64,000 bases of DNA, taken from contig NZ_NSJB01000003.1 of the NCBI RefSeq assembly GCF_002285265.1, positions 124,001-188,000 on the forward strand. Reading direction: 5' to 3'. Below the pieces are notes generated by a model that did no database searches, was not told where the DNA came from, and saw only the letters and a program-made list of their open reading frames with translations. Within the stretch, counting starts at the first letter, position 1, and each line of letters starts with the position of its first letter. Below are positions 4,901 to 63,996 of this stretch, piece by piece. The stretch comes from Vandammella animalimorsus. Lineage in GTDB: Bacteria > Pseudomonadota > Gammaproteobacteria > Burkholderiales > Burkholderiaceae_C. The position numbers were made by a program, and so were the translations under genes.

Positions 4901-7900
4901 CACCACGCTGAGCACGCGCAAGCGCATGGTCGGCGGCTTCTACAAGTACGAGCACCACCACGAAACCCAGGATCTGGGCACCGTCTGCGAAGGCCGCAGC
5001 GACGCCCTGGGCCGCTTCGATTGCACGGCCGAGCTGACGCAGCCCGGCGAGATCGAGCTGGTGGCCAGCGTGCAGGACGCGCAGGCGCGCCCCTTCAGCG
5101 CCGCCACCAGCATCTGGGTCACGCGCGAGGGCGAGCAGTGGTTCGATGCCGACTCCTCCGACCGCATGGACGTGCTGCCCGAAAAACCCAGCTACCAGCC
5201 CGGCCAGACTGCGCGCTTTCAAGTGCGCATGCCCTATCGCCAGGCCCAGGCGCTGGTCACTGTTGAGCGCGAGGGCGTGCTGCACAGCCAGATCATCGAG
5301 CTCTCGGGCCAGGACCCGAGCTTCACGCTGCACATCGACCCGAGCTGGAGCCCCAACGTCTACGTCAGCGTGCTGGCGCTGCGCGGGCGGCTGCGCGAGG
5401 TGCCCTGGTACAGCTTCTTCACCTGGGGCTTTCGCTCGCCCATTCTGTGGTGGCGCGCCTGGCGCAGCGACACCGGCGAGGCCGTGCCGCCCACCGCGCT
5501 GGTGGACTTGAGCAAGCCCAGCCACCGCCTGGGCGTGGCGATGCTGCGCGTGGGCGAAGACGGCCACCGGCTGCGCGTGCAGGTCACGCCCGACAAGCCG
5601 CGCTACCAAAGCGGCGAGACCGCCACGCTGACGCTGCAGGCCCAGCTGCCCGATGGCAAGCCCGCAGCCCATGCCGAAGTGGCGCTGGCCGTGGTGGACA
5701 AGGCCTTGCTGGAGCTCTCGCCCAACCCCAGCTGGGCGCTGCTCAAGGCCATGATGGGCGAGCGCGCCTGGCGCGTGCAAACCGCCACCGCGCAGATGGA
5801 AGTGGCCGGCCGGCGCCACTACGGCCGCAAGGCCGTGCCCGCAGGCGGCGGCGGCGGCGAGGGCGAAGGCCAGCACGCCACGCGCGAGCTGTTCGACACC
5901 CTGCTGCTGTGGCAGCCGCGCATCGCGCTGGACGCCAACGGCCGCGCCAGCGTGCAGGTGCCGCTCAACGACAGCGTCACCACCTTCCACGCCCAGGCCA
6001 TGGCCGATGCGGGCGTGCAGTTCTTCGGCGAGGGCAGCGCCGAGCTGCTGGCCACGCGCGATCTGCAAATCATCAGCGGCCTGCCGCCCGTGGTGCGCGA
6101 GGGCGACCGCTACGACGCGCGCCTCACGCTGCGCAACACCACCGACCAGCCGCTGACCGTGCAGGTCTCGGCGCGCCACGGCCAGCAGGAGCTGCCCGCC
6201 AGCAGCGTCAGCCTGGCCGCCGGCGCGGCGCAAACCGTGCAGTGGCAGGTCACCGCGCCCATGCTGGAAGGCGACCAGGCCCAGGCCAGCCTGGACTGGC
6301 AGCTGCAGGCCCAGGCCCAGCAAACGCCGGGCAATGACAAGGCCGCCCCGCAGGACAGCCTGCGCATCACGCAAACCCTGCTGCCGGCCGTGCCCGTGAC
6401 GGTGCGCCAGGCCAGCCTGCGCCAGCTGGGCGCGGCCAGCGAGGCGCCGCTGCAACTGCAGGTGGCCATGCCCGAAGGCGCGCTGGAGGGGCGCGGCGGC
6501 ATCGTGCTGCAGGCCCAGAGCCAGCTCGGCGGCGACCTGCTGCCCGGCCTGCAGCGCTGGTGGAAGCACTACCCCTATGCCTGCCTGGAGCAGCGCCACA
6601 GCAAGGCCATCGGCCTGCTCGACGAGCAGCTGTTCCAGTCCGTGCAGGCCGATCTGCCCAGCTTCCTGGACGACAACGGCCTGGCAGGCTACTTCCCGCC
6701 CAGCAGCCGCTACCCGGGCAGCGTGCCCCTGACGGCCCATTTGCTGCAGGTGGACGCCGTCATGCAGCAGCTGGGCATGCACCCCATGCGCATCGACGCC
6801 GACTCGCGCCAGCGCATGCTCAAGGCGCTGGAAGACTTCGTGCTGGGCAGGCTCGATCTCAAGGCCCCGCCCTACTACCCGAATGCACGGCATGAGCGCA
6901 GCGCCGAGCGCCTGATGGCCCTGGCCGCACTCAGCATGCACGGCGCGGCCCAGCCCAGCATGCTCGAACACCTGGAAATCACCCCCAGCGCCTGGCCCAC
7001 CTACGCCGTGCTGGACTGGCTGCAAATCCTGCGCAACCTGCCCAGCCTGCCCCAGCGCGCCAAGCTGCAGGCCCAGGCCGAGCAAACCCTGCGCAACCGC
7101 CTGCAGCACACCGGCACGCAGCTGAGCCTGAGCCAGGACGGGCCGCACCGTGGCTGGTGGCTGATGCAAAGCCCCGACAGCGACGCCGCGCGCCTGCTGC
7201 TGCTCACCGCCGACCTGCCCGGCTGGAAGGACGACGCCGGCGCCCTGGCCAGCGCCCTGCTGGCGCGCCAGAGCAACGGCGCCTGGCGCACCACCACTGC
7301 CAATCTGTGGGGCCAGCTGGCGCTGCGGCGCTTCTCCAACCTGCACGAGAGCGAGCCCGTGGGCGGCGCGCTGCAAGCCCGCCTGGGCGGCGAGCAGCAG
7401 CAGCGCGACTGGCCCGCGCCCTCGACCAGCGAAGGCCAAGGCGCAGCGCACGGCGAAGGCAAGGGCATATCGCGCCTGCAAATGCAGTTTGCCTGGCCCG
7501 ACGCCATCGCCCGCCTGGGCGATGCCCAGGCCGCCGCGCAGCTGGAAGTGGCGCAGCTGGGCACAGGCCGGCCCTGGCTGACCATCTCGGCGCTGGCGGC
7601 CATGCCGCTGACGGCCCCAGTGCACAGCGGCCTGCGCGTGGAAAAGCGCATCACCCCCGTGGTGCAGGCCACGCCCGGGCGCTGGAGCCCCGGCGACGTC
7701 TACCGCGTGCACCTGCTGCTCGACAGCGCCGCGCAGCTGAACATGACCGTGCTGACCGACCCCATCCCCGCCGGCAGCACCATCCTGGGCAGCGGCCTGG
7801 GGCGCGACTCGGCCATCGACAGCCAGGCCGGCGGCGACGAGGGCCACGATGACAGCTGGTGGCGCATCGCCTGGGTGGAGCGCAAGCACGACGCCATGCG

Positions 7901-8075
7901 CGTGTACTACCACGGCCTGCCCGCCGGGCAGACCCGCTACAGCTACACCGTGCGCCTGAACCAGCCCGGCCAGTTCCAGCTGCCGCCCACGCGCGCCGAA
8001 GCCCTGTACATGCCGCAGTTCTTCGGTGAAACCCCCAATGCCCAGTTCAGCGTGGCCGCGCCCGCGGCGCAGTAA
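1977..8075 (+). CDS. Alpha-2-macroglobulin family protein with thioester motif (periplasmic)
   Basis: Encodes about 2032 residues of a bacterial alpha-2-macroglobulin, a periplasmic protease trap thought to protect the cell when the outer membrane is breached. The thioester motif CLEQ is present (Cys at about residue 1536, codon 6582-6584), inside YPYACLEQ as in YfhM-type proteins. I chose the ATG at 1977 because it follows a purine-rich stretch (GAAGAGGGG) and opens directly onto a signal peptide ending AALGAQAA. The frame is open further upstream to 1869, but that extension is basic and not signal-like. The signal has no lipobox cysteine, so the protein should be soluble, whereas E. coli YfhM is a lipoprotein. 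A TACAAT -10-like hexamer lies at 1896-1901. The 3' end overlaps pbpC by 50 bases, the classic pairing for this family. Confidence 0.93.
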   Translation: MAHRLSPISTRLRRSRAWLAGALGALAALGAQAAQITSITPADVANHPRQVLVTLSEAVVPIGQPQATPPVTLQCDGAQPKGQGRWLHERQWAYQFEQPLPGGMRCQVARNPQFRDLGGQPLAELAEHRFNTGGPSIVDIHPSHWDGVIEEEQYFLLTLNSPVDPASLAKHAWCQIEGVGERVALRVLPDQEHQQMRELLRERRRRHDEHTGPTLAVACQRRMSPGATLTLVWDKGMAAPNGVTTEKREHYDYTVRPQFAATFRCTRENASKKCIPMLPMDLHFNDDVPMQWLPHIVLRAGDRQWLPSVELDDGRLTPEQWQAQAKQLEGRHMNWLRFDGPFPENTRFELVLPTGLQDDSQRLLSNASAFPLQVATDAAPALAKFATGDFAIIERFAEGYHQAPLLPMTLRRVEQELPLRVLRLDSDAEIIEWMYRTEQLRPGDYVHRHYAQSLGLSPLPTRSKKRDPDEREPNFVQARMIGLLEHQPQAQSRSIAPSPGNADRQATEVIGIPLEPGFQVVELASPLLGSALLDPKFDAPRTLYARTTVLVTNLAVHFKLGAHNSLAWVTSLDTGKPVAGARVQVNQCDGSVVAQATTDAQGLARFDDVAGMPECERAEDRYWHRHAYLVSARSPDGKDLALVWSDWQRGIEPWRFQHSYSDHLQPQNKTKLHTVLDRNLLRAGETVSMKHYARAEVPSGLATPAANALPDTLFVRHHGSQREFEQKLQWERTAGGGMVATSSLKLPAMAPLGRYSISLQRQGPNQVSATTAQFRVEEFRLPVLEGRITPLAAAEGKAAEGGALEMALQLSYLSGGHASNWPVKISAMLEPRWLQFDDYHDYQFTPPARPSERPDGHGPHEQDGPSSSEPRRLLLDKHPLTLDAQGQGRFTVPAAPAQYAAQPHQLRIEANFEDPSGETQTITRLQPVWPSDVLVGIATEEWISVKKPLKVRAIALSPQGQPLAGQAITVRARAHTTLSTRKRMVGGFYKYEHHHETQDLGTVCEGRSDALGRFDCTAELTQPGEIELVASVQDAQARPFSAATSIWVTREGEQWFDADSSDRMDVLPEKPSYQPGQTARFQVRMPYRQAQALVTVEREGVLHSQIIELSGQDPSFTLHIDPSWSPNVYVSVLALRGRLREVPWYSFFTWGFRSPILWWRAWRSDTGEAVPPTALVDLSKPSHRLGVAMLRVGEDGHRLRVQVTPDKPRYQSGETATLTLQAQLPDGKPAAHAEVALAVVDKALLELSPNPSWALLKAMMGERAWRVQTATAQMEVAGRRHYGRKAVPAGGGGGEGEGQHATRELFDTLLLWQPRIALDANGRASVQVPLNDSVTTFHAQAMADAGVQFFGEGSAELLATRDLQIISGLPPVVREGDRYDARLTLRNTTDQPLTVQVSARHGQQELPASSVSLAAGAAQTVQWQVTAPMLEGDQAQASLDWQLQAQAQQTPGNDKAAPQDSLRITQTLLPAVPVTVRQASLRQLGAASEAPLQLQVAMPEGALEGRGGIVLQAQSQLGGDLLPGLQRWWKHYPYACLEQRHSKAIGLLDEQLFQSVQADLPSFLDDNGLAGYFPPSSRYPGSVPLTAHLLQVDAVMQQLGMHPMRIDADSRQRMLKALEDFVLGRLDLKAPPYYPNARHERSAERLMALAALSMHGAAQPSMLEHLEITPSAWPTYAVLDWLQILRNLPSLPQRAKLQAQAEQTLRNRLQHTGTQLSLSQDGPHRGWWLMQSPDSDAARLLLLTADLPGWKDDAGALASALLARQSNGAWRTTTANLWGQLALRRFSNLHESEPVGGALQARLGGEQQQRDWPAPSTSEGQGAAHGEGKGISRLQMQFAWPDAIARLGDAQAAAQLEVAQLGTGRPWLTISALAAMPLTAPVHSGLRVEKRITPVVQATPGRWSPGDVYRVHLLLDSAAQLNMTVLTDPIPAGSTILGSGLGRDSAIDSQAGGDEGHDDSWWRIAWVERKHDAMRVYYHGLPAGQTRYSYTVRLNQPGQFQLPPTRAEALYMPQFFGETPNAQFSVAAPAAQ

Positions 8076-10380
8076 GCGCCCGCAGCGCAGTCAACACAGT
8101 CAACGCGGCGCGGCGCGGCGCCTGCTGGCTGGCGGCCTGCTGCTGGCCGGCTTGGCGCTGACAGGCGCGGGCGCGCCGGCGCTGGCCGATGGCCTGCCCA
8201 GTTTTGAGCAGGTGCGGCAGGAATTCCATTCCTCCGAAACCTGGCTGCTGGACCGCCACGGCCAGCGCCTGCAGCGCCTGCGCACCGACTTCAGCGTGCG
8301 CCGGGGCGACTGGGTGGCGCTGCAGGCCGTCTCCCCCGCGCTGCTGCACGCCATCGTGCTGACCGAGGACAAGCGCTTTTACGAGCACAGCGGCGTGGAC
8401 TGGGCCGCCGTGGGCGCGGCCGCCTGGGGCAATCTGTGGAACGAGCGCACGCGCGGCGCCTCCACCATCACCATGCAGCTGGCCGGCCTGCTCAACGAGG
8501 CGCTGCGCAGCCGCCCCGGCGGGCGCAGCTGGGGGCAGAAATGGCGCCAGCTGTGGTCGGCGCGCGATCTGGAGCAGGACTGGAGCAAGGCCCAGGTGCT
8601 GGAGGCCTATCTGAACCTGGTGCCCTTTCGCGGCGAGCTGCAGGGCATCGACGCGCTCTCGCGCAGCCTGTTCGACAAGGCCCCGCACGGCCTGGACCAG
8701 CGCGAGGCCGCCATTGCCGCCGCGCTGCTGCGCGCGCCCAACGCGCCCGTGGCGCGCGTGGCCGAGCGCGCCTGCCTGGTGCTGCAAGCGGCCCAATCGC
8801 CCTGGGGGCGCGACTGCAAGGCGCTGGCCTTCTACACCGAAGCGGCCCTGCGCCGCCGCCATTTCGAACCCGAGCAAGGCGATGCGCCGCACTTTGCCCG
8901 CTACGCGCTGCAGCAATACCAAGAGCAGCAAGCGCAGCAAGGGCCGCAAGATCAGCCACTGCCGGCCGAGCTCCCCAGCTCCCTGGACGCGGGGCTGCAG
9001 CGCCACGCCGCGCACACGCTGCGCCGGCAACTGCAGCAGCTGCAACACCAGAATGTGCGCGACGGCGCCGTGCTGGTGCTGGACAACGCCAGCGGCGAGG
9101 TGCTGGCCTGGGTCGGCTCCTCCGGGGCGCAGCTGAGCCAGGCCGCCGAAGTGGACGCCGTGCAGGCGCTGCGCCAGCCCGGCTCCACGCTCAAGCCCTT
9201 GCTCTACGCCCAGGCCATTGCGCAGCGCCGCCTGACGGCCGCCTCGCTGCTGGACGACTCGCCCGCGCGCATCCCCACCGCCTTCGGCCTGTACGTGCCG
9301 GAAAACTACGACCTGCGCTACCGCGGCTGGGTCTCGGTGCGCCAGGCGCTGGGCAGCTCGCTGAACATCCCGGCCGTGCGCGCGTTGGGCATGGTCACGC
9401 CCGAGGCCTTCGCCCAGCAGCTGCGCGCGCTGGGCTTTGCCCTGCCCGAGCCGGCCGGCTTTTACGGCCACAGCCTGGCGCTGGGCGGGGTGGACGTCAG
9501 CCTGCTGCAGCTGACCAACGCCTACCGCACCCTGGCCAATGGCGGCCTGCACGGCGCCGTGCGCAGCGCCCGCGCGCCAGCCAATGCGCCGCGCCCGGCC
9601 GACGATGCGCCACGCATCTGGGACGAGCGCGTGGCCTTCATCGTCGGCGACATGCTCTCGGACCGCCACGCCCGGCTGCTGACCTTCGGCACCGACAGCG
9701 CGCTGGCCACGCGCTTTTGGAGCGCCGTCAAGACCGGCACCAGCAAGGACATGCGCGACAACTGGGCCATCGGCTACACGCCGCGCTTTGCCATCGGCGT
9801 GTGGGTCGGCAATGCCGATGGCTCGCCCATGCACGACGTCAGCGGCATCTCCGGCGCGGCCCCGGTCTGGGCCAGCGTGGCTGCCTACCTGCACGCCCGC
9901 CACCCGGCCGCTGCGCCCCAGCAGCCTGCGGGCCTGGTGCGCCTGGGCGTGCAATACCAGCCAGAAAGCCCCGATGCCCCGCCCCCGATCGACAGCAGCC
10001 GCCAGGAATGGTTTCTGCCCGGCACCGAGCAGGCCCTCTTCACCCTGCCCGCGCCCACGGCCTCAGGCCATGCCGCCAGCGACAGCGCCGGCCACGCCAC
10101 GGCTGCGCGCATCATCGAGCCGCAACCGGGCACCATCATCGCGCTGGATCCGGACATCCCGCCAGCCAACCAAATGCTGCGCCTGCAAACCCAGGCCGCG
10201 CAGGCGCAATGGTGGTTCAACGGCCAGCGCGTCACCGGCCTGGCCGATGCGCGCCGCTGGTACTGGCCCCCCATGCCCGGCCGGCACCACATCGAACTGC
10301 GCAGCGCCGATGGCCGCACCGTCTACGACCAGGTTCACATCGAAGTGCGCGGCGCCTGGCTCAAAACCGATGCGCCTTGA
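8026..10380 (+). CDS. pbpC: Penicillin-binding protein 1C (glycosyltransferase/transpeptidase)
   Basis: A bifunctional class A PBP-type enzyme of 784 residues that polymerises and crosslinks peptidoglycan in the periplasm. An N-terminal signal/anchor (about residues 30-55) is followed by a GT51 domain with the catalytic Glu in LTEDKRFYEH (about residue 114) and GASTITMQLAGLL. The transpeptidase domain has STLK (Ser about 387), SSLN and KTGTS (about 569). A PBP1C-type C-terminal domain (from about residue 690) ends the protein. The start is the GTG at 8026, or the ATG at 8038, both inside the end of the macroglobulin gene, implying translational coupling. The macroglobulin/PBP1C pair is thought to guard and repair damaged wall, but this is family knowledge, not visible here. 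Confidence 0.93.
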   Translation: MKPPMPSSAWPRPRRSKRPQRSQHSQRGAARRLLAGGLLLAGLALTGAGAPALADGLPSFEQVRQEFHSSETWLLDRHGQRLQRLRTDFSVRRGDWVALQAVSPALLHAIVLTEDKRFYEHSGVDWAAVGAAAWGNLWNERTRGASTITMQLAGLLNEALRSRPGGRSWGQKWRQLWSARDLEQDWSKAQVLEAYLNLVPFRGELQGIDALSRSLFDKAPHGLDQREAAIAAALLRAPNAPVARVAERACLVLQAAQSPWGRDCKALAFYTEAALRRRHFEPEQGDAPHFARYALQQYQEQQAQQGPQDQPLPAELPSSLDAGLQRHAAHTLRRQLQQLQHQNVRDGAVLVLDNASGEVLAWVGSSGAQLSQAAEVDAVQALRQPGSTLKPLLYAQAIAQRRLTAASLLDDSPARIPTAFGLYVPENYDLRYRGWVSVRQALGSSLNIPAVRALGMVTPEAFAQQLRALGFALPEPAGFYGHSLALGGVDVSLLQLTNAYRTLANGGLHGAVRSARAPANAPRPADDAPRIWDERVAFIVGDMLSDRHARLLTFGTDSALATRFWSAVKTGTSKDMRDNWAIGYTPRFAIGVWVGNADGSPMHDVSGISGAAPVWASVAAYLHARHPAAAPQQPAGLVRLGVQYQPESPDAPPPIDSSRQEWFLPGTEQALFTLPAPTASGHAASDSAGHATAARIIEPQPGTIIALDPDIPPANQMLRLQTQAAQAQWWFNGQRVTGLADARRWYWPPMPGRHHIELRSADGRTVYDQVHIEVRGAWLKTDAP

Positions 10381-10448: not shown

Positions 10449-10805
10449 TCAGTTCTCCGGCTCGAAACCTGAAGCAGACGGCGCATCCGGATGCAACCAG
10501 GCTGGCATGTCGCGCCGCTCATGCAGCACGCGCCAGACATCGACGTGATCTGATCGCGCGACGTAGAACACCCAATAGGGATAGCGCTTCAAAGGCCAGC
10601 TGCGCAGGCCGGGCAGGTCCAGCTCGTGCGCGTAACGCGGCGAGCCGGTGGCCGGATGGCGGGCGATCTGGGCATAGGCCTGCTCCAGCGCGTCAATGAA
10701 GCCCAGCGCAGCGGCCATGGCCTGTTCGCGCAGATAGTGCTCCAAGGCCTGGTCAACGTCCCGCCTGGCCTGGGCCCGGGGGATGACAGGCGGCAGGGCC
10801 TTCAT
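10449..10805 (-). CDS. parE: RelE/ParE-family toxin
   Basis: A 118-residue protein with the compact ParE fold signature: an N-terminal helical pair (QARRDVDQALEHYLREQ), then PATGSPRYAHEL, LRSWPLKRYPYWVFY and the C-terminal VDVWRVLHERRD strand. Family members poison DNA gyrase or cleave mRNA; the WPLKRYPYWVFY block is more typical of ParE. Its start overlaps the stop of the upstream antitoxin by four bases (ATGA), so the two are translationally coupled. The C-terminus runs about 20 residues past the usual fold and is Pro/Ser-rich. It converges with pbpC. Confidence 0.85.
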   Translation of the reverse strand: MKALPPVIPRAQARRDVDQALEHYLREQAMAAALGFIDALEQAYAQIARHPATGSPRYAHELDLPGLRSWPLKRYPYWVFYVARSDHVDVWRVLHERRDMPAWLHPDAPSASGFEPEN

Positions 10806-11038
10806 CCCCGCGCACGCTGCACCTTGGCGCGCAGCGTGTCGAAATATGCGCCATCGGCAGGCGCGCCCGGCGCAGAAGCGGCGCCGGCCAGCAGCAGGCC
10901 GCGCAGTTGCTGGCGATCCTGATCGCGGCGGATCAGCTCGCGCACATACTCGCTGCTGGTGCCATAGCCACGCTGGCTGACCTGCTCATCGACAAAGGAC
11001 TTCAGGCTTTCGGGCAGGGAGATGTTCATCGTGCTCAT
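10802..11038 (-). CDS. parD: ParD-type ribbon-helix-helix antitoxin
   Basis: A 78-residue antitoxin with an N-terminal ribbon-helix-helix DNA-binding segment (MNISLPESLKSFVDEQV, then GTSSEYVRELIRRD) and a C-terminal tail that should wrap the toxin. The frame is open up to 11131, but the ATG at 11038 (or 11029) places the RHH strand at the N-terminus as in all ParD proteins. It overlaps parE by four bases. By family rule the ParDE complex represses its own promoter, which should lie in 11039-11117, between parD and the end of alr. The antitoxin-first order is standard. Confidence 0.85.
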   Translation of the reverse strand: MSTMNISLPESLKSFVDEQVSQRGYGTSSEYVRELIRRDQDRQQLRGLLLAGAASAPGAPADGAYFDTLRAKVQRARG

Positions 11039-16042: not shown

Positions 16043-16882
16043 ATGCCCCAAGCCCCAAGCCCCCAGGCCGATGCCTGTGCCCCCGCGCTGGCACAGGCCA
16101 TGATCCTGGCCGCCGGCCGCGGCCAGCGCATGCGCCCGCTGACCGACCACACCCCAAAGCCACTGCTGATGGTGCGCGGCCAGCCATTGCTGGCCTGGCA
16201 CCTGGCGGCAATGGCCAGCGCAGGCATCGACTGCGTGCTCATCAACACCGGCTGGCTGGGCGAGCAAATCCCGGCGCGCCTGGGCAGCCATTTCGTGCCC
16301 GCCGATGCCGGCCATCCGGGCGCGCCTCAGCCCGCGCCGGCCGCCGTGCAGCTGCGCTACTCGCGCGAGGACCTAGACTTTGGCGGCGGCATCGAGACCG
16401 CCGGCGGCATCGCCCGTGCATTGCCCCAGCTGCAAGAGATGTTCTGGCTCATCGCCGGCGACGTGTATGCGCCGCAGTTTCGCTTCGATCCGCAGGCGCG
16501 CGCGCGCTTTGCCACCAGCGATGCGCTGGCGCACCTGTGGCTGGTGCCCAACCCGCCGCACCACCGGCGCGGCGACTTCCTGCTCGAGCGCGGGCTGGCG
16601 CGCCCATTGCCCGAGCCCGCCAGCGCCAGCGATGCGCAACCAGGCCCGCCGCATTGCCGGCACTACACCTACAGCACCATCGCGCTGCTCAAGCAGGCCT
16701 TGTTCGCCCCGCCCTGGTGCGAGCTGCCGCGCGGCAACCCCGAGGGCCAAGCGGCCGCGCTGGGGCCGCTGCTGCAGCGCGCCGCACGCGCCGGGCGCGT
16801 CAGCGCCAGCCTCTACCACGGCGACTGGACCGATGTGGGCACCCCGCAGCGCCTGGCGGCGCTGAACCAGCCGCCGACCTGA
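16043..16882 (+). CDS. murU: MurU-like N-acetylmuramate-1-phosphate uridylyltransferase
   Basis: A 279-residue sugar-1-phosphate nucleotidyltransferase. The signature AAGRGQRMRPLT (residues 23-34) followed by PKPLL, and LDFGGGIETAGGI, are characteristic of MurU, which makes UDP-MurNAc from MurNAc-1-P and UTP in peptidoglycan recycling. WLIAGDVY supplies the metal-binding Asp and GDWTDVGTPQRL is the usual C-terminal motif. The first 19 residues precede the fold, so a later start is possible. Its usual partner, the kinase AmgK, is not adjacent. A general nucleotidyltransferase role cannot be excluded. Confidence 0.8.
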   Translation: MPQAPSPQADACAPALAQAMILAAGRGQRMRPLTDHTPKPLLMVRGQPLLAWHLAAMASAGIDCVLINTGWLGEQIPARLGSHFVPADAGHPGAPQPAPAAVQLRYSREDLDFGGGIETAGGIARALPQLQEMFWLIAGDVYAPQFRFDPQARARFATSDALAHLWLVPNPPHHRRGDFLLERGLARPLPEPASASDAQPGPPHCRHYTYSTIALLKQALFAPPWCELPRGNPEGQAAALGPLLQRAARAGRVSASLYHGDWTDVGTPQRLAALNQPPT

Positions 16883-17034
16883 ACACAGGCTGGCCGCGCA
16901 CCCCTCCTCCAATTGGCATTTGGTAACGAGTCCAGCGCGGCGCAGCCGCCGTGGGCGCGCCACATTCGATTAGTATTGCCGCAGCGCATGGGCATCCGCC
17001 ATGCATCGTCCGTCCAAGAAAAGGCCCTTGACCC

Positions 17035-17907
17035 ATGTGGGATCGCATCAAGCAGCTCTGGAACAAAGCCCCCCGTCCGCCGCAAACCCTTCAGCTGCCG
17101 GAGCAGGAGCAGCGCAGGCTGCTCGCGCAAGCCCAGCAGGCCCTGGAGCAAGGCCAGTACGCCCAGGCCGAGCGCCAGGCCCATGAGCTGGCCGGCTCCA
17201 GCATCGACGAGCTGTCCGAGCAAGGCATGCGTCTGCTGGGGCTGGTGTACTTCCACCAGCAGCAATACCTGCAGGCCTGGCCCATCTTCCAGAAACTGGC
17301 CCAGCGCACCGGCAGCGTCAACGACTGGTTCAACGTCGTCACCTCGGCCACATTGGCCGGCGAAATCGCCCAGGGCGCCAGCGCCTTCGAAAGCGCCCTC
17401 AAGGCCCACGACAGCAGCGACGACAACCCCGCCCTGAGCGCCGCCAGCCTGCACCTGTACTACGCCTGCGCACTGCGCGACCGCGGCGAGCACGCCAAGG
17501 CCTTCGAGCACGTGCAGGTGCTGCGCGCCCTGTACGAAAAGCTGCCGCAGACCGACGCCCACACGCTGGAGCTGCGCAACTTCCCGCGGCTGGACGCCGT
17601 GCTCGACATGATGGCCGACGTACTGGCCCACTCCGGCGACATCCCCGAGGCCGAGGCCTGGCTGCGCAGCTTTGGCCAGCAGCTCAAGGGCGGCAACGTC
17701 CACAGGGACATCGCCCAGGCCATCGAACGCCTGCACCGCAACGCCCCGCCCGCCCCCGCCGCGCAAGCGGCAGAGGCAGACGCAGCGCCCGCCGCAGCCC
17801 CGGCACCGGAGCCAACCCCTGCCGCCAGCGCCCCCTCGGCCGATACCGGCGCCGCACAACAAAGCCTGCCCCTGGAGCGTCAGGACAAAGAACCGCGGCT
17901 GGACTAG
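17035..17907 (+). CDS. TPR-like repeat protein with Ala/Pro-rich tail
   Basis: A 290-residue soluble protein without a signal peptide. It opens with an aromatic helix (MWDRIKQLWNKAP). Residues 25-225 are a run of helix pairs with TPR-like spacing (ALEQGQYAQAERQAHELA, LGLVYFHQQQYLQAW). A low-complexity tail rich in Ala and Pro follows (about residues 235-280). TPR proteins are scaffolds for protein contacts; no partner is obvious. It stands alone after murU (152-base gap) and ends in a strong terminator. Confidence 0.7.
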   Translation: MWDRIKQLWNKAPRPPQTLQLPEQEQRRLLAQAQQALEQGQYAQAERQAHELAGSSIDELSEQGMRLLGLVYFHQQQYLQAWPIFQKLAQRTGSVNDWFNVVTSATLAGEIAQGASAFESALKAHDSSDDNPALSAASLHLYYACALRDRGEHAKAFEHVQVLRALYEKLPQTDAHTLELRNFPRLDAVLDMMADVLAHSGDIPEAEAWLRSFGQQLKGGNVHRDIAQAIERLHRNAPPAPAAQAAEADAAPAAAPAPEPTPAASAPSADTGAAQQSLPLERQDKEPRLD

Positions 17908-32305: not shown

Positions 32306-33757
32306 ATGCCAACCACCACATCGCCCCCGCTGGTCGTCGATCTGGACGGCACGCTGATCCTGACCGATTCGCTGCAAGAGCTGGCCCTGGCGCAGTGCAA
32401 AAGCAATCTGTGGCAGGCACTGCGCATCCCCGCCTGGCTGCGGCAGGGCAAGGCCCAGCTCAAGCAGGCCCTGGCCGAGCGCAACCGGCTGGACGCCGCC
32501 AGCCTGCCCTACCACCAGGAGCTGCTGCAATGGCTGCGCGCCGAGCAGGCCCAGGGCCGCACGCTGGTGCTGTGCACCGGGGCCGACCAGCGCGTGGCCC
32601 AGGCGGTGGCCGAACATCTGGGCCTGTTCAGCGCCGTCATCGCCAGCGATGGGCAGCACAACCTCACCGCCGCCCGCAAGGCCCAGGCCCTGGTGCAGCG
32701 CTACGGCGCGCAGGGCTTTGACTACGTGGGCAATTCGCGCGATGACCTGCCCGTCTGGCAGCAGGCGCGCCAGGCCATCGTCGCCAACGCGGCCCCTGCC
32801 GTGCAGCAGGCCGCGCAGCAACAAGGCAATGTGGCGCGCAGCTTCCCCGCGCCCGCGCGCGATGCGCGCAGCCTGCTGCGCATGCTGCGCCCGCACCAAT
32901 GGCTCAAGAACCTGCTGCTGTTCGTGCCCCTGCTGGCCGCGCAGCAGTTCGGCAACGGCGCGGCCTGGGGGCAGCTGCTGCTGGCCTTTTTGTCCTTCAG
33001 CCTGTGCGCCTCGGCGGTGTACATCGGCAATGATTTGCTCGATCTGCAAAGCGATCGCCAACACCCGCGCAAATGCCAGCGCCCCTTCGCCAGCGGCCGC
33101 ATCCCCTTGGCCTGGGGCGTGGCGCTGGCGCCGCTGCTGCTGGCCGCCAGCCTGGGGCTGGGGCTGCTGGTCGGCCCGGCCTTTCTGGGCTGGCTGGCGG
33201 CGTACTTTGCGCTGACCTGCTGGTATTCGCTGAGCCTCAAGCGCCTGGTGCTGCTCGATTGCCTGACGCTGGCCGGGCTGTACACGCTGCGCATCGTCGC
33301 CGGCGCGGCGGCCGTGGGCCTGGTGCTCTCGCACTGGCTGTTCGGCGTCTCGGGCTTCATGTTTCTCTCGCTGTCCTTTCTCAAGCGCTACACCGAGCTG
33401 CACATGCTGGCGCAGCGCGGCAGCGGCCAGGCCAGCGCCCACGGGCGCGGCTACCTGGCCCAGGATGCGCCGCTGGTGCAGGCGCTGGGCGTGGGCACGG
33501 GCTACGCCGCCGCCGTGCTGCTGGCCCTGTATCTGGACAGCAACACCGCGCGCACGATGTACCGCCTGCCCGAGGCCATCTTCCTGGCCATTGCCGTGCT
33601 GGTCTATTGGATCAGCTGGCTGTGGCTGCAGGCGCACCGCGGCCAGATGCACGACGACCCGGTGTTCTTCGCCATTAAGGACCGCACCAGCCTGCTGTGC
33701 GGCCTGGCCTTTGCCGCCACGCTGGCGCTGGGCATGCTGGGCCTGCCATGGGCATGA
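32306..33757 (+). CDS. HAD phosphatase-UbiA prenyltransferase fusion (decaprenyl-phosphate phosphoribosyltransferase-like)
   Basis: A 483-residue fusion. Residues 1-175 are a HAD-type phosphatase: DLDGT (Asp12/Asp14), LVLCTGA, the Lys near 125 and VGNSRDDLPVW. Residues 190-483 are a polytopic UbiA prenyltransferase with NDLLDLQSD (Asn242-Asp250) and the second polar loop SLKRLVLLDCL. Of UbiA enzymes it most resembles those that transfer phosphoribose from PRPP to polyprenyl phosphate (Rv3806c type). The HAD domain would then remove the 5-phosphate from the product. Its stop codon overlaps the start of the DprE1-like gene (ATGA), and the set of four genes supports a polyprenyl-phosphate arabinose role. 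Substrate assignment is inference. Confidence 0.82.
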   Translation: MPTTTSPPLVVDLDGTLILTDSLQELALAQCKSNLWQALRIPAWLRQGKAQLKQALAERNRLDAASLPYHQELLQWLRAEQAQGRTLVLCTGADQRVAQAVAEHLGLFSAVIASDGQHNLTAARKAQALVQRYGAQGFDYVGNSRDDLPVWQQARQAIVANAAPAVQQAAQQQGNVARSFPAPARDARSLLRMLRPHQWLKNLLLFVPLLAAQQFGNGAAWGQLLLAFLSFSLCASAVYIGNDLLDLQSDRQHPRKCQRPFASGRIPLAWGVALAPLLLAASLGLGLLVGPAFLGWLAAYFALTCWYSLSLKRLVLLDCLTLAGLYTLRIVAGAAAVGLVLSHWLFGVSGFMFLSLSFLKRYTELHMLAQRGSGQASAHGRGYLAQDAPLVQALGVGTGYAAAVLLALYLDSNTARTMYRLPEAIFLAIAVLVYWISWLWLQAHRGQMHDDPVFFAIKDRTSLLCGLAFAATLALGMLGLPWA

Positions 33758-35142
33758 GCGCCAAGCAGCGCCAAGCCGCGCCGGCCACCGTGCCCGTCAG
33801 CGCCTGGGGGCAGCTGCAGGCGGCCGAGCACCAGCTGCTGGCGCCCGATGCGCTGGCCCCGCAGCAGCCCTGGCCGCAGGCGGCGCAAGGCGCCAGCGTG
33901 CTGCCGCACGGCATGGGGCGCAGCTATGGCGACGTCTGCCTCAACCCTGGCGGGGCGCTGTGGCTGGGCCGCGCGCTGGATCAATGGCTGGAATTTGACG
34001 CCCAGCAAGGCCTGCTGCGCTGCCAGGCCGGGGTGCAGCTGGGCGAGATCCAGCGCCTGCTGGCACCTCGCGGCTGGATGCTGCCCGTCACCCCCGGCAC
34101 GCAGTTCGTCACCGTCGGCGGAGCCATCGCCAACGACGTGCACGGCAAAAACCACCACGTCATGGGCAGCTTTGGCGAGCACGTGCGCGCGCTGACGCTG
34201 CTGCGCAGCGACGGGCGTCGCATCGCCTGCGCCCCCGGCCAGCATGAGGACTGGCTGCACGCCACCATCGGCGGCCTGGGCTTGACCGGGCTGATCACCG
34301 AGGCCACGCTGCAACTGCGCCGCGTAGCCGGCCCCTGGCTGAAGGCGCAAAGCATTGCCTTCGAGCGCCTGGCCGATTTCTATCCGCTGGCCGAGCAGTC
34401 CGAGGCCGATTGGGAATACACCGTGGCCTGGATCGACTGCCTGCACCGGCAGGGGCGCGGCATCTTCATGCGCGCCAACCACTGCCAGGCGCACGAGGCC
34501 ACGCCCGCGCACGCGCCCCGGCAGCCCCAGCGCAGCATGCCCGTCACGCCGCCGCTGTCGCTGGTCAACCCGCTGAGCCTGCGCGCCTTCAACTGGGCCT
34601 ACTACCACCTGCAGCGCCGCAGCGCGCAGGCCACGGCAGGCCAGGCCGGCGGCGCCATCAGCCATTACCGGCCATTTTTCTACCCGCTCGATGGGCTGGC
34701 GCACTGGAACCGCATGTACGGGCCACGGGGCTTTTACCAGTACCAATGCGTGATCCCGTTCGCGCCCGCGCCGGGCTCGGCCGGGCCGGCCGGGGCCGAT
34801 GCCATTGCCGCGCTGCTGGCACAGATTGCGCGCAGCGGCCAGGGCTCCTTCCTGGCCGTGCTCAAGACCTTTGGCCAGCGCCCAGCGCCCGGCATGCTCA
34901 GCTTCGCGCAGCCGGGCATCACGCTGGCGCTGGACTTTCCCAACCGGGGCCAGGCCACGCTGCGGCTGTTCGATGCGCTGGACGCCATCGTGCGCGCCGC
35001 CGGCGGGCGCCTGTACCCGGCCAAGGACGCGCGCATGCCCGCCGAGCTCTTCCAGGCCAGCTACCCGCAGCTGGCGCAGTTCCTGCCCTACCGCGACCCG
35101 GGCATCAGCTCGGCCATGTCGCGCCGCCTGCTGGGCGCATGA
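33754..35142 (+). CDS. FAD-linked oxidase, DprE1-like (decaprenylphosphoryl-ribose 2'-oxidase)
   Basis: A 462-residue FAD_binding_4 oxidoreductase. In mycobacteria DprE1 oxidises the 2'-hydroxyl of polyprenyl-phosphoryl ribose, the first half of epimerisation to arabinose. The diagnostic block GGAIANDVHGKNHH...GSFGEHV is present (His130, the equivalent of mycobacterial flavin-binding His132). SYGD and GGLGLTG are FAD contacts, and PAKDARMP supplies the active-site Lys (424, equivalent to Lys418). The start at 33754 overlaps the upstream stop (ATGA); an ATG at 33748 is also possible. This is the most secure assignment in the cassette. Confidence 0.88.
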   Translation: MSAKQRQAAPATVPVSAWGQLQAAEHQLLAPDALAPQQPWPQAAQGASVLPHGMGRSYGDVCLNPGGALWLGRALDQWLEFDAQQGLLRCQAGVQLGEIQRLLAPRGWMLPVTPGTQFVTVGGAIANDVHGKNHHVMGSFGEHVRALTLLRSDGRRIACAPGQHEDWLHATIGGLGLTGLITEATLQLRRVAGPWLKAQSIAFERLADFYPLAEQSEADWEYTVAWIDCLHRQGRGIFMRANHCQAHEATPAHAPRQPQRSMPVTPPLSLVNPLSLRAFNWAYYHLQRRSAQATAGQAGGAISHYRPFFYPLDGLAHWNRMYGPRGFYQYQCVIPFAPAPGSAGPAGADAIAALLAQIARSGQGSFLAVLKTFGQRPAPGMLSFAQPGITLALDFPNRGQATLRLFDALDAIVRAAGGRLYPAKDARMPAELFQASYPQLAQFLPYRDPGISSAMSRRLLGA

Positions 35143-35201
35143 GCCAGGCGGCCCGCAGCCCCTGCAACGCCCGCATCCCCCCGCACCACCCACACCACAC
35201 C

Positions 35202-35954
35202 ATGAGCACAAGCCAATACATCGTCGTCATCGGCGCCACCTCCCACATTGCCCAGCAATGCTGCCGCCTCTGGGCCGAACAAGGCCCTTGTGAGTTCCTG
35301 CTGGTGGGCCGCGATGCGCAGCGCACCGAGCAGGTCGCGGCCGACCTGCGCGCGCGCGGCGCGGCCGTCAGCGCCCAGGTGCAAACGCTGGATTTCGACG
35401 ACCCGGACGCCGCAGCGGCCCTGGCGCGCAGCGCACAGGCCCGCGGCCGCGTGGACATCGTGCTCATCGCCCACGGCGCGCTGCCCGATCAGGCCCAATG
35501 CCAGAGCGAGCTGCGCGCCGCGCAGCAGGCGCTGCACATCAACGGCCTGTCGCCCGCGCTGCTGGCCGAGGCCTTTGCCGGCCCCATGCAGCAGGCCAAC
35601 CATGGCCGCCTGTGCATCATCGGCTCCGTGGCCGGGGATCGCGGGCGCAAGAGCAACTACGTCTATGGCGCGGCCAAGGGCCTGCTCGAACGCTACGCCC
35701 AGGGCCTGCAGCACCGCCTGGCCGGCACGGCCGTGCGCGTGACGCTGGCCAAGCCCGGCCCGACCGACACGCCGATGACGGCCCGCCTCAAGCAAGGCGG
35801 CGCGCGCCTGGCCAGCGCCCAGGCCGTGGCCCAGCGCATCGTGCGCGCCATCGAGGCCGGCCGCCCCGTGGTCTACGCCCCAGCCCAATGGGCGCTGATC
35901 ATGCTGGTCATCCGCAACCTGCCGCGCCGGGTGTTTCACAAGCTCGATATTTGA
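35202..35954 (+). CDS. Short-chain dehydrogenase, DprE2-like (keto-arabinose reductase)
   Basis: A 250-residue SDR expected to reduce the keto intermediate made by the DprE1-like enzyme to polyprenyl-phosphoryl arabinose using NAD(P)H. The cofactor motif VIGATSHIAQ is near the N-terminus. IAHGALPD and the catalytic Ser of IGSVAGDRG are in place, as are Tyr and Lys of YVYGAAKG. A membrane-seeking C-terminal segment (WALIMLVIRNLPRRVF) fits work on a lipid-linked substrate. In the same frame an ATG at 35139 overlaps the previous stop and would add 21 residues. DprE2-type function rests largely on neighbourhood. Confidence 0.8.
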   Translation: MSTSQYIVVIGATSHIAQQCCRLWAEQGPCEFLLVGRDAQRTEQVAADLRARGAAVSAQVQTLDFDDPDAAAALARSAQARGRVDIVLIAHGALPDQAQCQSELRAAQQALHINGLSPALLAEAFAGPMQQANHGRLCIIGSVAGDRGRKSNYVYGAAKGLLERYAQGLQHRLAGTAVRVTLAKPGPTDTPMTARLKQGGARLASAQAVAQRIVRAIEAGRPVVYAPAQWALIMLVIRNLPRRVFHKLDI

Positions 35955-35955
35955 G

Positions 35956-36411
35956 ATGCGCCTGAGCCTGCTCTACAGCCTGTTTTGCGCCCTGGCCATT
36001 GCCGTCAACATCGGCACGCAGGAGGCCGTGGTGCGCCTGGGCCACTGGCTGCAGCAGCAGCTGGACATGGCCACGCCGCTGCCGGGCCTGATCCTGCTGT
36101 CCATCGCCGCGGGCACCGCCACGGGGCTGGTCGTCAAATACCTGCTGGACAAGCGCTACATCTTCCGCTTCCAGCCCCAAAGCGCCGCGCACGACGGCAA
36201 GACCTTTGTGCGCTACACCCTGATGGGGCTGGCCACCACGCTGATCTTCTGGGGCTTCGAATACGGCTTCTGGCTGATCTTCCAGAGCGCGACCATGCGC
36301 TACCTGGGCGGCGTCATCGGGCTGGTGCTGGGCTACGTCAGCAAATACCACCTGGACAAGCGGTTCGTTTTCAACCCTGCCGCAGCGGGATCGCAGGGCC
36401 GTTCGGCCTGA
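35956..36411 (+). CDS. GtrA-family membrane protein (polyprenyl-phosphate sugar flippase candidate)
   Basis: A 151-residue protein with four membrane helices and the GtrA signatures YLLDKRYIF and YLGGVIGLVLGYVSKYHLDKRFVF. GtrA proteins are thought to flip or assist flipping of lipid-linked sugars; Rv3789 is the member beside mycobacterial dprE1. It starts one base after the SDR stop, so it belongs to the same operon. It is the last gene of the cassette, and earP follows after 33 bases. Confidence 0.85.
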   Translation: MRLSLLYSLFCALAIAVNIGTQEAVVRLGHWLQQQLDMATPLPGLILLSIAAGTATGLVVKYLLDKRYIFRFQPQSAAHDGKTFVRYTLMGLATTLIFWGFEYGFWLIFQSATMRYLGGVIGLVLGYVSKYHLDKRFVFNPAAAGSQGRSA

Positions 36412-36444: not shown

Positions 36445-37755
36445 ATGCCCGCCACCGACACTGCACCGCCGCCCCTGGCCTGGGACATCTTCTGCCGCGT
36501 CATCGACAACTACGGCGATGCCGGCGTCTGCTGGCGCCTGGCCTGCGACCTGGCCGGGCGCGGCGATGGCGTGCGGCTGTGGATCGACGAGCACAGCGCG
36601 CTGCGCTGGCTCAGCAGCGCGCCGGCCTCGCTCTGGGATGCGCCGCCGCCCTGGCAGCACCAGGGCGTGCGCATCCTGCCCTGGGCGCTGGCCGAAAGCC
36701 TGGCCCCTGGGCAACTGGCGACGCTGGCGGCGCTGGCGGCGCTCACGCCAGCTTCGCCCGCACAGCCAGCGCCGCGCCAAGTGCTGATCGAAGCCTTTGG
36801 CTGCGAGATCCCCGACGCCTACCTCAGCGCCCTGGCCCAGCTCGCTGGCGGCCAAGCCGGCCCTGCCAACGCCATTGGGCCGCGCCCCTGGCCGCTGTGG
36901 CTGAACCTCGAATACCTCTCGGCCGAACCCTACGTGGAGCGCATGCACCTGCTGCCCTCGCCGGTGATGTTCGGCCCGGCCGCAGGGCAGCGCAAGACCT
37001 TTTTCTACCCTGGGCTGACGCCGCGCACCGGCGGCCTGCTGCGCGAGCCGACTCTGGCGCAGCGCCGGGCGCGCTTCGATGCCACGGCCTGGCGCCGCGC
37101 CTTCCTGCAGGCGCAACCCGCCGCCGCACAGGCCTCCAAGCCGATCGACCACGCCACCCAGGCCAGTTGGATCAGCCTGTTCGCCTACGAACCCGCCTGC
37201 CTGCCGCAGTGGCTGCGCGCCTGGGCCCAGGCCGCGCAGCCCGTGCAGCTGCTGGCCGCGGCCGGGCGCTCGCAAGCCTGGCTGCGCCAGTGCTGGCAGC
37301 AGCTGGGCTGGGCCGGCGCGCAGCAGGGCGCGCTGACGGTGCACTGGCTGCCCTTCATGCCGCAGGCGCAGTTCGACGAGCTGCTGTGGGCTTGCGACCT
37401 GAACATCGTGCGCGGCGAGGATTCGCTGGTGCGCGCGCTGTGGGCCGCGCGCCCCTTTTTGTGGCACATCTACCCCCAGCACGACAACGCCCATCACGGC
37501 AAACTGCAGGCCTTCATGGACTGGCTGCAACCGCCTGAGCACTGGCGCGCCGCCTTGCTGCAACTCAACGGCATGGCCAGCGCCAACGCGCCGCCGCAGC
37601 CCTCGCCCAGCAGCGCCCTTCAAGGCACACAACAGGCAAGCTGGGCGCACTGGCAGGACTGCGCGCGCGCCGCCTGCAGCCGCCTGCAGGCCCAGCCCGA
37701 CCTGGCCACGCAGCTGCGCGCCTGGGCCGCCACCGGTGCGCAGCAGCCCACGTAG
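36445..37755 (+). CDS. earP: EF-P arginine rhamnosyltransferase EarP
   Basis: A 436-residue GT-B glycosyltransferase that adds rhamnose from dTDP-rhamnose to Arg32 of elongation factor P, needed for translating polyproline stretches. The EarP start DIFCRVIDNYGDAGVCWRLA contains the catalytic Asp residues. LNLEYLSAEPYVE, FFYPGLTPRTGGLLRE and NIVRGEDSLVRALWA are the nucleotide-sugar and acceptor motifs. The ATG at 36445 is preferred to 36412. Its usual neighbour efp is absent here, where an MBL-fold gene follows instead. A low-complexity insert lies near residues 380-400. Confidence 0.93.
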   Translation: MPATDTAPPPLAWDIFCRVIDNYGDAGVCWRLACDLAGRGDGVRLWIDEHSALRWLSSAPASLWDAPPPWQHQGVRILPWALAESLAPGQLATLAALAALTPASPAQPAPRQVLIEAFGCEIPDAYLSALAQLAGGQAGPANAIGPRPWPLWLNLEYLSAEPYVERMHLLPSPVMFGPAAGQRKTFFYPGLTPRTGGLLREPTLAQRRARFDATAWRRAFLQAQPAAAQASKPIDHATQASWISLFAYEPACLPQWLRAWAQAAQPVQLLAAAGRSQAWLRQCWQQLGWAGAQQGALTVHWLPFMPQAQFDELLWACDLNIVRGEDSLVRALWAARPFLWHIYPQHDNAHHGKLQAFMDWLQPPEHWRAALLQLNGMASANAPPQPSPSSALQGTQQASWAHWQDCARAACSRLQAQPDLATQLRAWAATGAQQPT

Positions 37756-46350: not shown

Positions 46351-47328
46351 TCAGAACAGCCCGCCTTGCTCCTTGAACAGGCTCATCACCGAGTCGCCAC
46401 GGGCAATGCGCTGGATGGTTTCGGCAATCAGCGGCGCCACCGTGAGCTGGCGAATCTTGCTGCAGGCGCGCGCCTGCTCGCTCAAGGGAATGGTGTTGGT
46501 GACCACCACCTCATCGAGCGCCGAGCCGGCGGCAATGCGTTCGATGGCCGGGCCCGAGAAGATCGGGTGCGTGCAGTAGGCATGCACGCTCTTGGCGCCA
46601 CGCTCTTTGAGCACTTCGGCGGCTTTGACCAGCGTGCCGGCAGTGTCGATCATGTCGTCCATCACGACGCAGTTGCGGCCTTCGATCTCGCCGATGACGT
46701 TCATGACTTCGCTGACGTTGGCCTTGGGGCGGCGCTTGTCGATGATGGCCAGATCGCAGCCCAGCTCCTTGGCCAGTGCGCGCGCGCGCACCACCCCGCC
46801 CACGTCGGGCGAGACCACGATCAAATCCTCATAGCGCTTTTTGTTCAGATCGCTCAGCAGCACCGGCGAGGCGTAGATGTTGTCCACCGGGATGTCGAAA
46901 AAGCCCTGGATCTGATCGGCGTGCAAGTCCATGGTCAGCACGCGCGCCACGCCCACGGTCTGCAGCAGGTTGGCCACCACCTTGGCCGAGATCGGCACGC
47001 GGGTCGAACGCGGCCGGCGATCCTGGCGGGCATAGCCGAAATAGGGGATGACGGCGCTGATGCGCTCGGCCGATGCGCGCTTGAGCGCATCCACCATGAT
47101 CAGCAGCTCCATCAGGCTGTCGTTGGTCGGCGCGCAGGTGGGCTGCACCACGAACACGTCGCGCGCACGCACGTTCTGCCGGATCTCGACCGTCACTTCC
47201 CCATCGGAGAAGCGCCCCACGTGCGCCGCGCCCAGCGATGTGCCCAGGTGCTCGGCAATCTCTTTGGCCAACGCGGGGTTGGCGTTGCCGGTGAACAGCA
47301 TGAAGTCGGAGTGGTGGGAAACGCTCAT
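46351..47328 (-). CDS. prs: Ribose-phosphate pyrophosphokinase
   Basis: A 325-residue enzyme that makes PRPP from ribose-5-phosphate and ATP for nucleotide, His and Trp synthesis. PRPP would also be the phosphoribosyl donor for the UbiA-like enzyme at 32.3 kb. [46 protein letters not shown] and the PRPP loop [13 protein letters not shown] are present. Its place between tRNA-Gln and rplY is conserved in beta-proteobacteria. Confidence 0.97.
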
Positions 47329-63285: not shown

Positions 63286-63996
63286 TCAGCGCGCCACCTG
63301 CTCGCCCGTCTTGCCGAAACGGCGCTGGCGCTGTGCATAGTCGTGCAGCGCGGCATCCAGGTCCTGGGCGTCGAAATCGGGCCAGAGCACATCGGAAAAA
63401 TACAGCTCCGTATAGGCCAGCTGCCACAGCAGAAAATTGCTGATGCGCAACTCGCCGCCGGTGCGGATGAGCAAGTCCGGATCGGGCACGTGCGCCAGCG
63501 CCAGCGCAGCCGACAGGCTGTCCGCATCGATGGGCTGGCCCTGCTGACGCAGGCGCTCGGCGGCCTGGGCGATGTCCCAGCGGCCGCCGTAGTTGAAGCA
63601 CACGTTGAGGATCAGGCGCTCGTTGCCCGCGGTGTCCTGCTCGGCCTGCGCCAGGCTGGCGCGCACCTTCTCGCTCAGGCGGGAGCGATCGCCCACGCAA
63701 TGCAGGCGCACGCCATTGGCCTTCAGGCTGGTGACTTCCTTGGCCAGCGCCGAGGCCATCAACCCCATCAGGCCATCGACCTCATCGGCAGGCCGGGCCC
63801 AGTTCTCAGAGGAAAAGGCAAACACCGTCAGCACCCGCACGCCACGCTGACCGCACAGGCCCACGCAACGGCGCAGCGCATCCACGCCTTTTTTGTGCCC
63901 CGCCAGGCGGGGCAGCATGCGCCGCTGGGCCCAGCGGCCATTGCCATCCATGACGATGGCAATGTGCTGGGGCAAGGCAGATGAGACTGAGGTCAT
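63286..63996 (-). CDS. uppS: Undecaprenyl diphosphate synthase
   Basis: A 236-residue cis-prenyltransferase that builds the C55 carrier for peptidoglycan and other envelope glycans. The catalytic Asp17 lies in IAIVMDGNGRWA; FAFSSENWARP, NVCFNYGGRWDI and LLIRTGGELRISNFLLWQ are the family blocks, and the final SDVLWPDF is present. The gene is complete and starts 4 bases from the window end. It heads the envelope cluster visible here; further genes probably lie upstream. Confidence 0.97.
   Translation of the reverse strand: MTSVSSALPQHIAIVMDGNGRWAQRRMLPRLAGHKKGVDALRRCVGLCGQRGVRVLTVFAFSSENWARPADEVDGLMGLMASALAKEVTSLKANGVRLHCVGDRSRLSEKVRASLAQAEQDTAGNERLILNVCFNYGGRWDIAQAAERLRQQGQPIDADSLSAALALAHVPDPDLLIRTGGELRISNFLLWQLAYTELYFSDVLWPDFDAQDLDAALHDYAQRQRRFGKTGEQVAR

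Follow-up and report, generated by a model that had tools for sequence, protein, structure and literature searches.

Four tightly packed genes in a Vandammella genome raise the question of which sugar they make, and of which protein passes that sugar on and to what. The genes lie at positions 32306–36411 of a stretch of 64,000 nucleotides, here referred to as the window, which corresponds to positions 124001–188000 of contig C16 in a genome (G000) of 3.10 Mb and 22 contigs. This genome was searched, and a few of its stretches were read. An earlier note on the window had recognized in the cassette a polyprenyl-phosphate arabinose pathway in a Gram-negative bacterium, and our analysis supports it, since hidden Markov models (HMMs), nearest solved structures and catalytic motifs agree. 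From such comparisons we consider it probable that the cassette makes and exports undecaprenyl-phosphate-D-arabinofuranose; the D-arabinofuranose (D-Araf) would then be added to a surface glycan, most likely by a WsfD-type protein. The system is of a known kind; what is new is that the genome offers a candidate for the detached transferase.

Enzymes encoded by the cassette

HMM searches of the cassette proteins gave matches to the family models of the synthase, DprE1, DprE2 and GtrA. The first gene (32306–33757) encodes a HAD-UbiA fusion of 483 aa, with the HAD domain at about residues 5–165 and the UbiA domain at about residues 185–480. The protein scores 648 bits against the NCBIfam model PRK08238 (cut-off 351), the next-best models being decaprenyl-phosphate phosphoribosyltransferases with at most 155 bits, and its nearest solved structure is the decaprenyl-phosphate phosphoribosyltransferase 8j8j (E 5.5e-26). 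The HAD domain (45 bits) carries the nucleophile motif DLDGT at residue 12, as looked for in a 5-phosphate phosphatase. Moreover, the UbiA part has the residues typical of synthases using phosphoribosyl pyrophosphate (PRPP), on which the note's reading depended: N242, D243, D246 and D250 form the loop II motif N-D-x-x-D-x-x-x-D, and R361/E364 form the R-x-x-E of loop IV. Their spacing matches that of N247, D248, D251, D255 and R366/E369 in ORF15 of Citrobacter youngae, where the N247/D248/D251/D255 group is required for full activity (PMC11127046).

The second gene (33754–35142, 462 aa) encodes a flavin adenine dinucleotide (FAD) oxidase predicted to act as a polyprenyl-phosphate-ribose 2'-oxidase. 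It scores 328 bits against the DprE1 model NF053785 and 45 bits against the next family, and matches solved DprE1 chains with E of about 1e-64, so that by these scores DprE1 is the nearest group among the FAD_binding_4 oxidases. Residue 130 is the first of the motif HGKNHH...GSFGEHV, and K424, within YPAKDAR, is the active-site Lys; the signature and the lysine are thus as intact as had been claimed, and the oxidase falls within the DprE1 group. We call it DprE1-like rather than DprE1 because its score stays below the equivalog cut-off of 500 bits.

One residue of this oxidase deserves separate mention. The benzothiazinone drug class traps mycobacterial DprE1 covalently via Cys387. The corresponding position is Ala in the window protein and in 53/53 readable relatives, and these DprE1 relatives are therefore predicted to escape covalent trapping by benzothiazinones.

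The third gene (35202–35954, 250 aa) adjoins that of the oxidase and encodes a short-chain dehydrogenase/reductase (SDR), putatively the DprE2-like enzyme that turns the keto intermediate into arabinose. Its top model is the unnamed SDR PRK07102 (246 bits), and the DprE2 model NF053786 gives 170 bits, below the equivalog cut-off of 250 bits. The best PDB match is 21gq_C, a decaprenylphosphoryl-2-keto-pentose reductase (DprE2), with E 2.9e-31; GATSHIA and the SDR motif Y-x-x-x-K, as YVYGAAK at residue 153, are present. The fourth gene (35956–36411, 151 aa) encodes a GtrA-family membrane protein, matching PF04138 and, with 185.5 bits, gtrA_1 (NF037976, cut-off 50). The cluster thus holds a presumed flippase gene, transport being predicted from the family.

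As the earlier note had described, the four genes are closely packed on the + strand. None has an internal stop; UbiA and DprE1 overlap by ATGA at 33754–33757, and a single base separates DprE2 from GtrA. For DprE2, an upstream ATG at 35139, which would give an ATGA overlap with DprE1, is an option besides the start at 35202. The 5' neighbour of the cassette was named by eye as a sirtuin-type gene. On the 3' side, an EarP-like gene (by eye, 36445–37755) begins 33 bases after the cassette, possibly on one transcript with it.

For the first three steps of the pathway we rely on the strong homology of the enzymes and on their intact motifs, whereas the fourth is inferred from GtrA family membership and the fifth from gene neighbourhoods in relatives. 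PRPP and undecaprenyl phosphate would be the starting substrates. The fused HAD domain would strip the 5-phosphate from the product of the synthase, after which the DprE1-like oxidase and DprE2-like reductase would invert C2, giving arabinose from ribose. GtrA would then flip the lipid-linked sugar to the periplasm. Finally, side chains of D-Araf would be attached to a surface glycan by a polytopic transferase of the GT-C-like type, for which the WsfD-type protein encoded beside lapAB on contig C20 is the most likely candidate.

Distribution and gene order in relatives

We scanned 84,980 species genomes and obtained at least 80 loci, 79 of them with a called DprE1; the locus counts below hold among the matches listed. 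The loci belong mostly to Burkholderiales and Gammaproteobacteria, with some from Alphaproteobacteria, and some odd labels, such as one "Chloroflexi" and one "Rhizobium" record whose proteins look betaproteobacterial, may stem from errors in binning. The DprE1 of V. animalimorsus NML 03-0146 is 97% identical to the window protein, which identifies the DNA as that of a Vandammella. DprE2 adjoins DprE1 in 68/79 loci. Of the 79 loci, 29 encode UbiA fused to HAD and 27 a separate UbiA, which in 17 cases is accompanied by a gene for a divergent PAP2 phosphatase (DUF212), from which it appears that the phosphatase step is kept in either of two forms. Because this gene order recurs in relatives of many families, the cassette is not a chance arrangement.

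Within the family the pattern is patchy. The comparison across Comamonadaceae that the earlier note had suggested gave DprE1 in 15 of the 151 genomes sampled and a synthase match in 30. Among plasmids, 71 records, most of them from rhizobia, matched a DprE1-like protein, while phage records gave a single partial synthase match (36%).

The gene that follows the cassette is often of one class. In 30/61 loci the gene directly after DprE2 or GtrA is co-directional and encodes a polytopic protein no shorter than 350 aa, while among flanking genes the share of this class is 12% (binomial tail 2.6e-12, with relatives that are not independent). These proteins are very diverse and most are without a Pfam match, as would be expected if they were transferases serving different acceptors. 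In several relatives, Wzm/Wzt-type genes lie less than 10 kb from the cassette. A further arrangement was seen in about 23 relatives (L034, L039, L045, L061, L064, L067, L092 and others), where a conserved trio stands downstream of DprE2, coding for an NAD-dependent epimerase-like protein, an FAD amine-oxidase-like protein and another protein of the GtrA type; the trio may make a second lipid-linked sugar.

A candidate for the detached transferase

The note had found no arabinosyltransferase, pilin or glycan cluster beside the cassette, which is correct for the window, and had taken the lack of an adjoining transferase as a sign of novelty. This second point does not hold, because the system type is published (PMC11127046, PMC12369383, PMC5080398), the Pseudomonas transferase is likewise encoded apart from its pathway genes, and the Vandammella genome itself carries, away from the cassette, a homologue of transferases that are linked to cassettes in relatives. 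The note's further suggestion of a new arabinosylated envelope product goes beyond what sequence can show. The order UbiA-DprE1-DprE2-GtrA-transferase occurs in Comamonas sp. SCN 65-56 and in an Ottowia metagenome-assembled genome (MAG), and likewise in an Acidovorax MAG, where a greedy gene call merged GtrA into its neighbour; in Lampropedia hyalina the transferase homologue lies 0.8 kb from DprE1. Members of this family have about 500 aa, about 10 hydrophobic helices and an invariant Asp just past the first of them.

When the family alignment was searched against the window's genome, a single gene was found, C20:7710–9152 (E 5.5e-56). Its product passes the WsfD model NF051875 (122.8 bits, cut-off 80). 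It shares 36.6% identity with the Lampropedia protein across 467 residues, 26–27% with the other three and 89.5% with its V. animalimorsus orthologue. The genome-wide search for a GT-C transferase proposed in the note yielded a candidate of the WsfD type, while the PMT_2 type (PF13231) gave no match in the window's genome. For WsfD of Paenibacillus alvei, the proposed task is to pass glucose on from its lipid carrier to the S-layer glycan (PMC2943079), the third-component role required here. We therefore name the C20 protein tentatively, and just short of probable, as the arabinosyltransferase; it is a sequence-based candidate for the "missing" detached enzyme.

In both Vandammella genomes the WsfD-like gene adjoins a short secreted-type protein, lapB and lapA. 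Its other neighbours are rpsA on the lapAB side and rpoN on the opposite side. A single contig of 408,811 bases carries both this gene and the cassette, about 62 kb apart, in V. animalimorsus NML 03-0146. Compared with L160, the window shows a synteny break at 16043–17907, where NML 03-0146 continues with the WsfD-like gene and lapAB, which are on another contig here.

Several observations weigh against the proposed pathway and its candidate transferase. First, all three enzymes of the cassette score below the curated cut-offs set for the mycobacterial equivalog models, which demand more than homology. Second, another genome of the family (G021) has a lone WsfD-like homologue (37% identity) and neither DprE1 nor the synthase, and two GT2 proteins of G000 (L154, L155) resemble polyprenyl-phosphate-hexose synthases, so that a hexose or other donor is possible for the WsfD-like protein. 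Third, an AlphaFold model of the Lampropedia transferase, built from four sequences, had a mean predicted local distance difference test (pLDDT) score of 44.7 and leaves the GT-C fold unsupported. Co-occurrence of the WsfD-like gene with DprE1 gives no support, because the gene has only two carriers among the 151 family genomes and one of these is free of DprE1. It is present in 5/37 cassette-bearing genomes; in many of the remaining ones that place is taken by genes for unrelated polytopic proteins. We also observed that the protein at L154:1474–2547, encoded beside a radA-like gene, joins a GT2 domain of the DPM1 type to a GtrA domain, combining synthase and flippase.

Alternatively, the transferase could be another polytopic protein and the acceptor a polysaccharide exported by an ABC transporter. 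About 70 kb from the cassette, at about 83–89 kb of C16 (L147:11038–16901), stand the genes for Wzm, Wzt (with Wzt_C), a methyltransferase and, at L147:14211–16901 (about 86–89 kb), an 896-aa polytopic protein with DUF7657/DUF7654, which is a second candidate periplasmic transferase. This arrangement, together with the Wzm/Wzt genes near the cassettes of relatives, speaks for such a route. Yet the flanks examined in relatives contained no DUF7657 gene beside a cassette, whereas WsfD-type homologues stand beside four. We regard this alternative as rather unlikely.

Acceptors, sugar and known systems

Candidate acceptors may be sought among the surface glycans. The genome has two O-antigen-ligase-type proteins and, on C21 (46001–66000, L158), a Kps-type capsule locus. 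This locus encodes a KpsS-like and a second Capsule_synth protein, an ABC transporter, and GalE-like, glycerol-phosphate cytidylyltransferase-like, amidotransferase and CDP-glycerol transferase-like proteins. It also includes a UDP-galactopyranose mutase, scoring 395 bits against a cut-off of 304, and a GlfT2-like galactofuranosyltransferase, which matches mycobacterial GlfT2 (4fix) with E 1.2e-51. With this locus and the Wzm/Wzt locus in one genome, a Gram-negative arabinogalactan-like polymer can be conceived, in which the WsfD-type transferase would add D-Araf to a galactofuranose-containing polysaccharide. We hold it to be unlikely; the sole link between capsule locus and cassette is their presence in one genome, and the flanks examined in relatives showed no GlfT2-like or Glf gene beside a cassette. 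A galactofuranose polymer is already known in a Gram-negative bacterium, the galactan of Kingella kingae. The Kps-type locus adjoins polyketide-type ketoreductase and aminotransferase-like genes.

It is also conceivable that the pathway yields no arabinose, either because its product is polyprenyl-phosphate-ribofuranose or another pentose or because the DprE1/DprE2-like enzymes catalyse a different redox step. The scores below the equivalog cut-offs, and the synthase's occurrence without DprE1 in relatives (30/151 against 15/151), would agree with this. Nevertheless, DprE1 and DprE2 are by far the nearest solved relatives, their genes adjoin each other and the synthase in most loci, and in published systems these two enzymes are the mark of Araf glycans; we consider a product other than arabinose very unlikely. 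A similarly small chance is given to type IV pilin as the recipient of the arabinose, the role it has in Pseudomonas paraeruginosa, where TfpW is the transferase. That species likewise has its biosynthesis genes and transferase at separate loci. In the window's genome, though, no pilin exceeded the Pfam cut-off (PF00114, best E 0.02), a weak test with one family model, a prepilin-motif scan at three places found nothing, and the WsfD-like gene adjoins lapAB and no pilin. That the cassette is a non-functional remnant is scarcely credible. In favour of this, its transferase is detached, unlike in close relatives, and DprE1 is kept in few family genomes; against it, all four reading frames are open, their motifs are undamaged, and two Vandammella genomes retain both the cassette and the transferase.

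Production and export of lipid-linked D-Araf for a surface glycan, the preferred reading, would place the system among the three-component kind, with HAD-fused synthase, flippase and GT-C, joined by DprE1/E2 homologues in the Araf versions; such systems occur widely, with acceptors unknown (PMC11127046). As in Citrobacter youngae O1/O2, HAD is N-terminal to a PRPP-using UbiA-type synthase for a lipid-linked pentofuranose, and a flippase is present; there, in contrast to Vandammella, the flippase is of the MATE type rather than GtrA, the GT136 transferase is within the cluster rather than a distant WsfD-type candidate, and the acceptor is known, an O antigen (PMC11127046). P. paraeruginosa PA7/Pa5196 (PSPA7_6245–6251 and TfpW) also has a UbiA-type synthase for lipid-linked D-Araf and a transferase elsewhere (PMC12369383), which adjoins pilA, a pilin link not seen in Vandammella; its phosphatase is not HAD-fused (PMC11127046). 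The mycobacterial decaprenyl-phosphoryl-arabinose pathway (Rv3806c, Rv3807c, DprE1, DprE2, Rv3789) has the same reactions and a homologous synthase, oxidase and reductase, but a decaprenyl carrier, an unfused phosphatase of another family, Emb/Aft transferases and arabinogalactan as acceptor. Another Gram-negative example, the noeC(N)HOP operon of Azorhizobium/Rhizobium, pairs homologues of that pathway with a transferase gene dedicated to it; there D-Araf goes to the Nod factor, and the transferase NoeP is encoded in the same operon (PMC5080398). WsfD/WsfH of P. alvei shares the WsfD family and a lipid-linked monosaccharide donor, but the donor is lipid-linked glucose and the acceptor the S-layer glycan (PMC2943079).

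The cassette adds an animal-associated (animal-mouth) bacterium to the carriers of the lipid-linked arabinose pathway, a target of new tuberculosis drugs. Its detached transferase now has a testable candidate, and candidate acceptors have been named. If the reading is true, surface D-arabinose would give such a bacterium a distinctive antigen.

Other features of the window were named by eye. Outside the cassette, on the - strand, are prs (46351–47328), for the ribose-phosphate pyrophosphokinase that is the housekeeping source of PRPP, and uppS (63286–63975), for the undecaprenyl diphosphate synthase that is the housekeeping source of the presumed lipid carrier. At 2052–10380, a gene for a 2007-aa secreted-type protein is followed by a penicillin-binding-protein-like gene, resembling an alpha-2-macroglobulin/PBP1C pair. 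At 10449–11038, two small overlapping genes resemble a ParE/ParD-type toxin-antitoxin pair.

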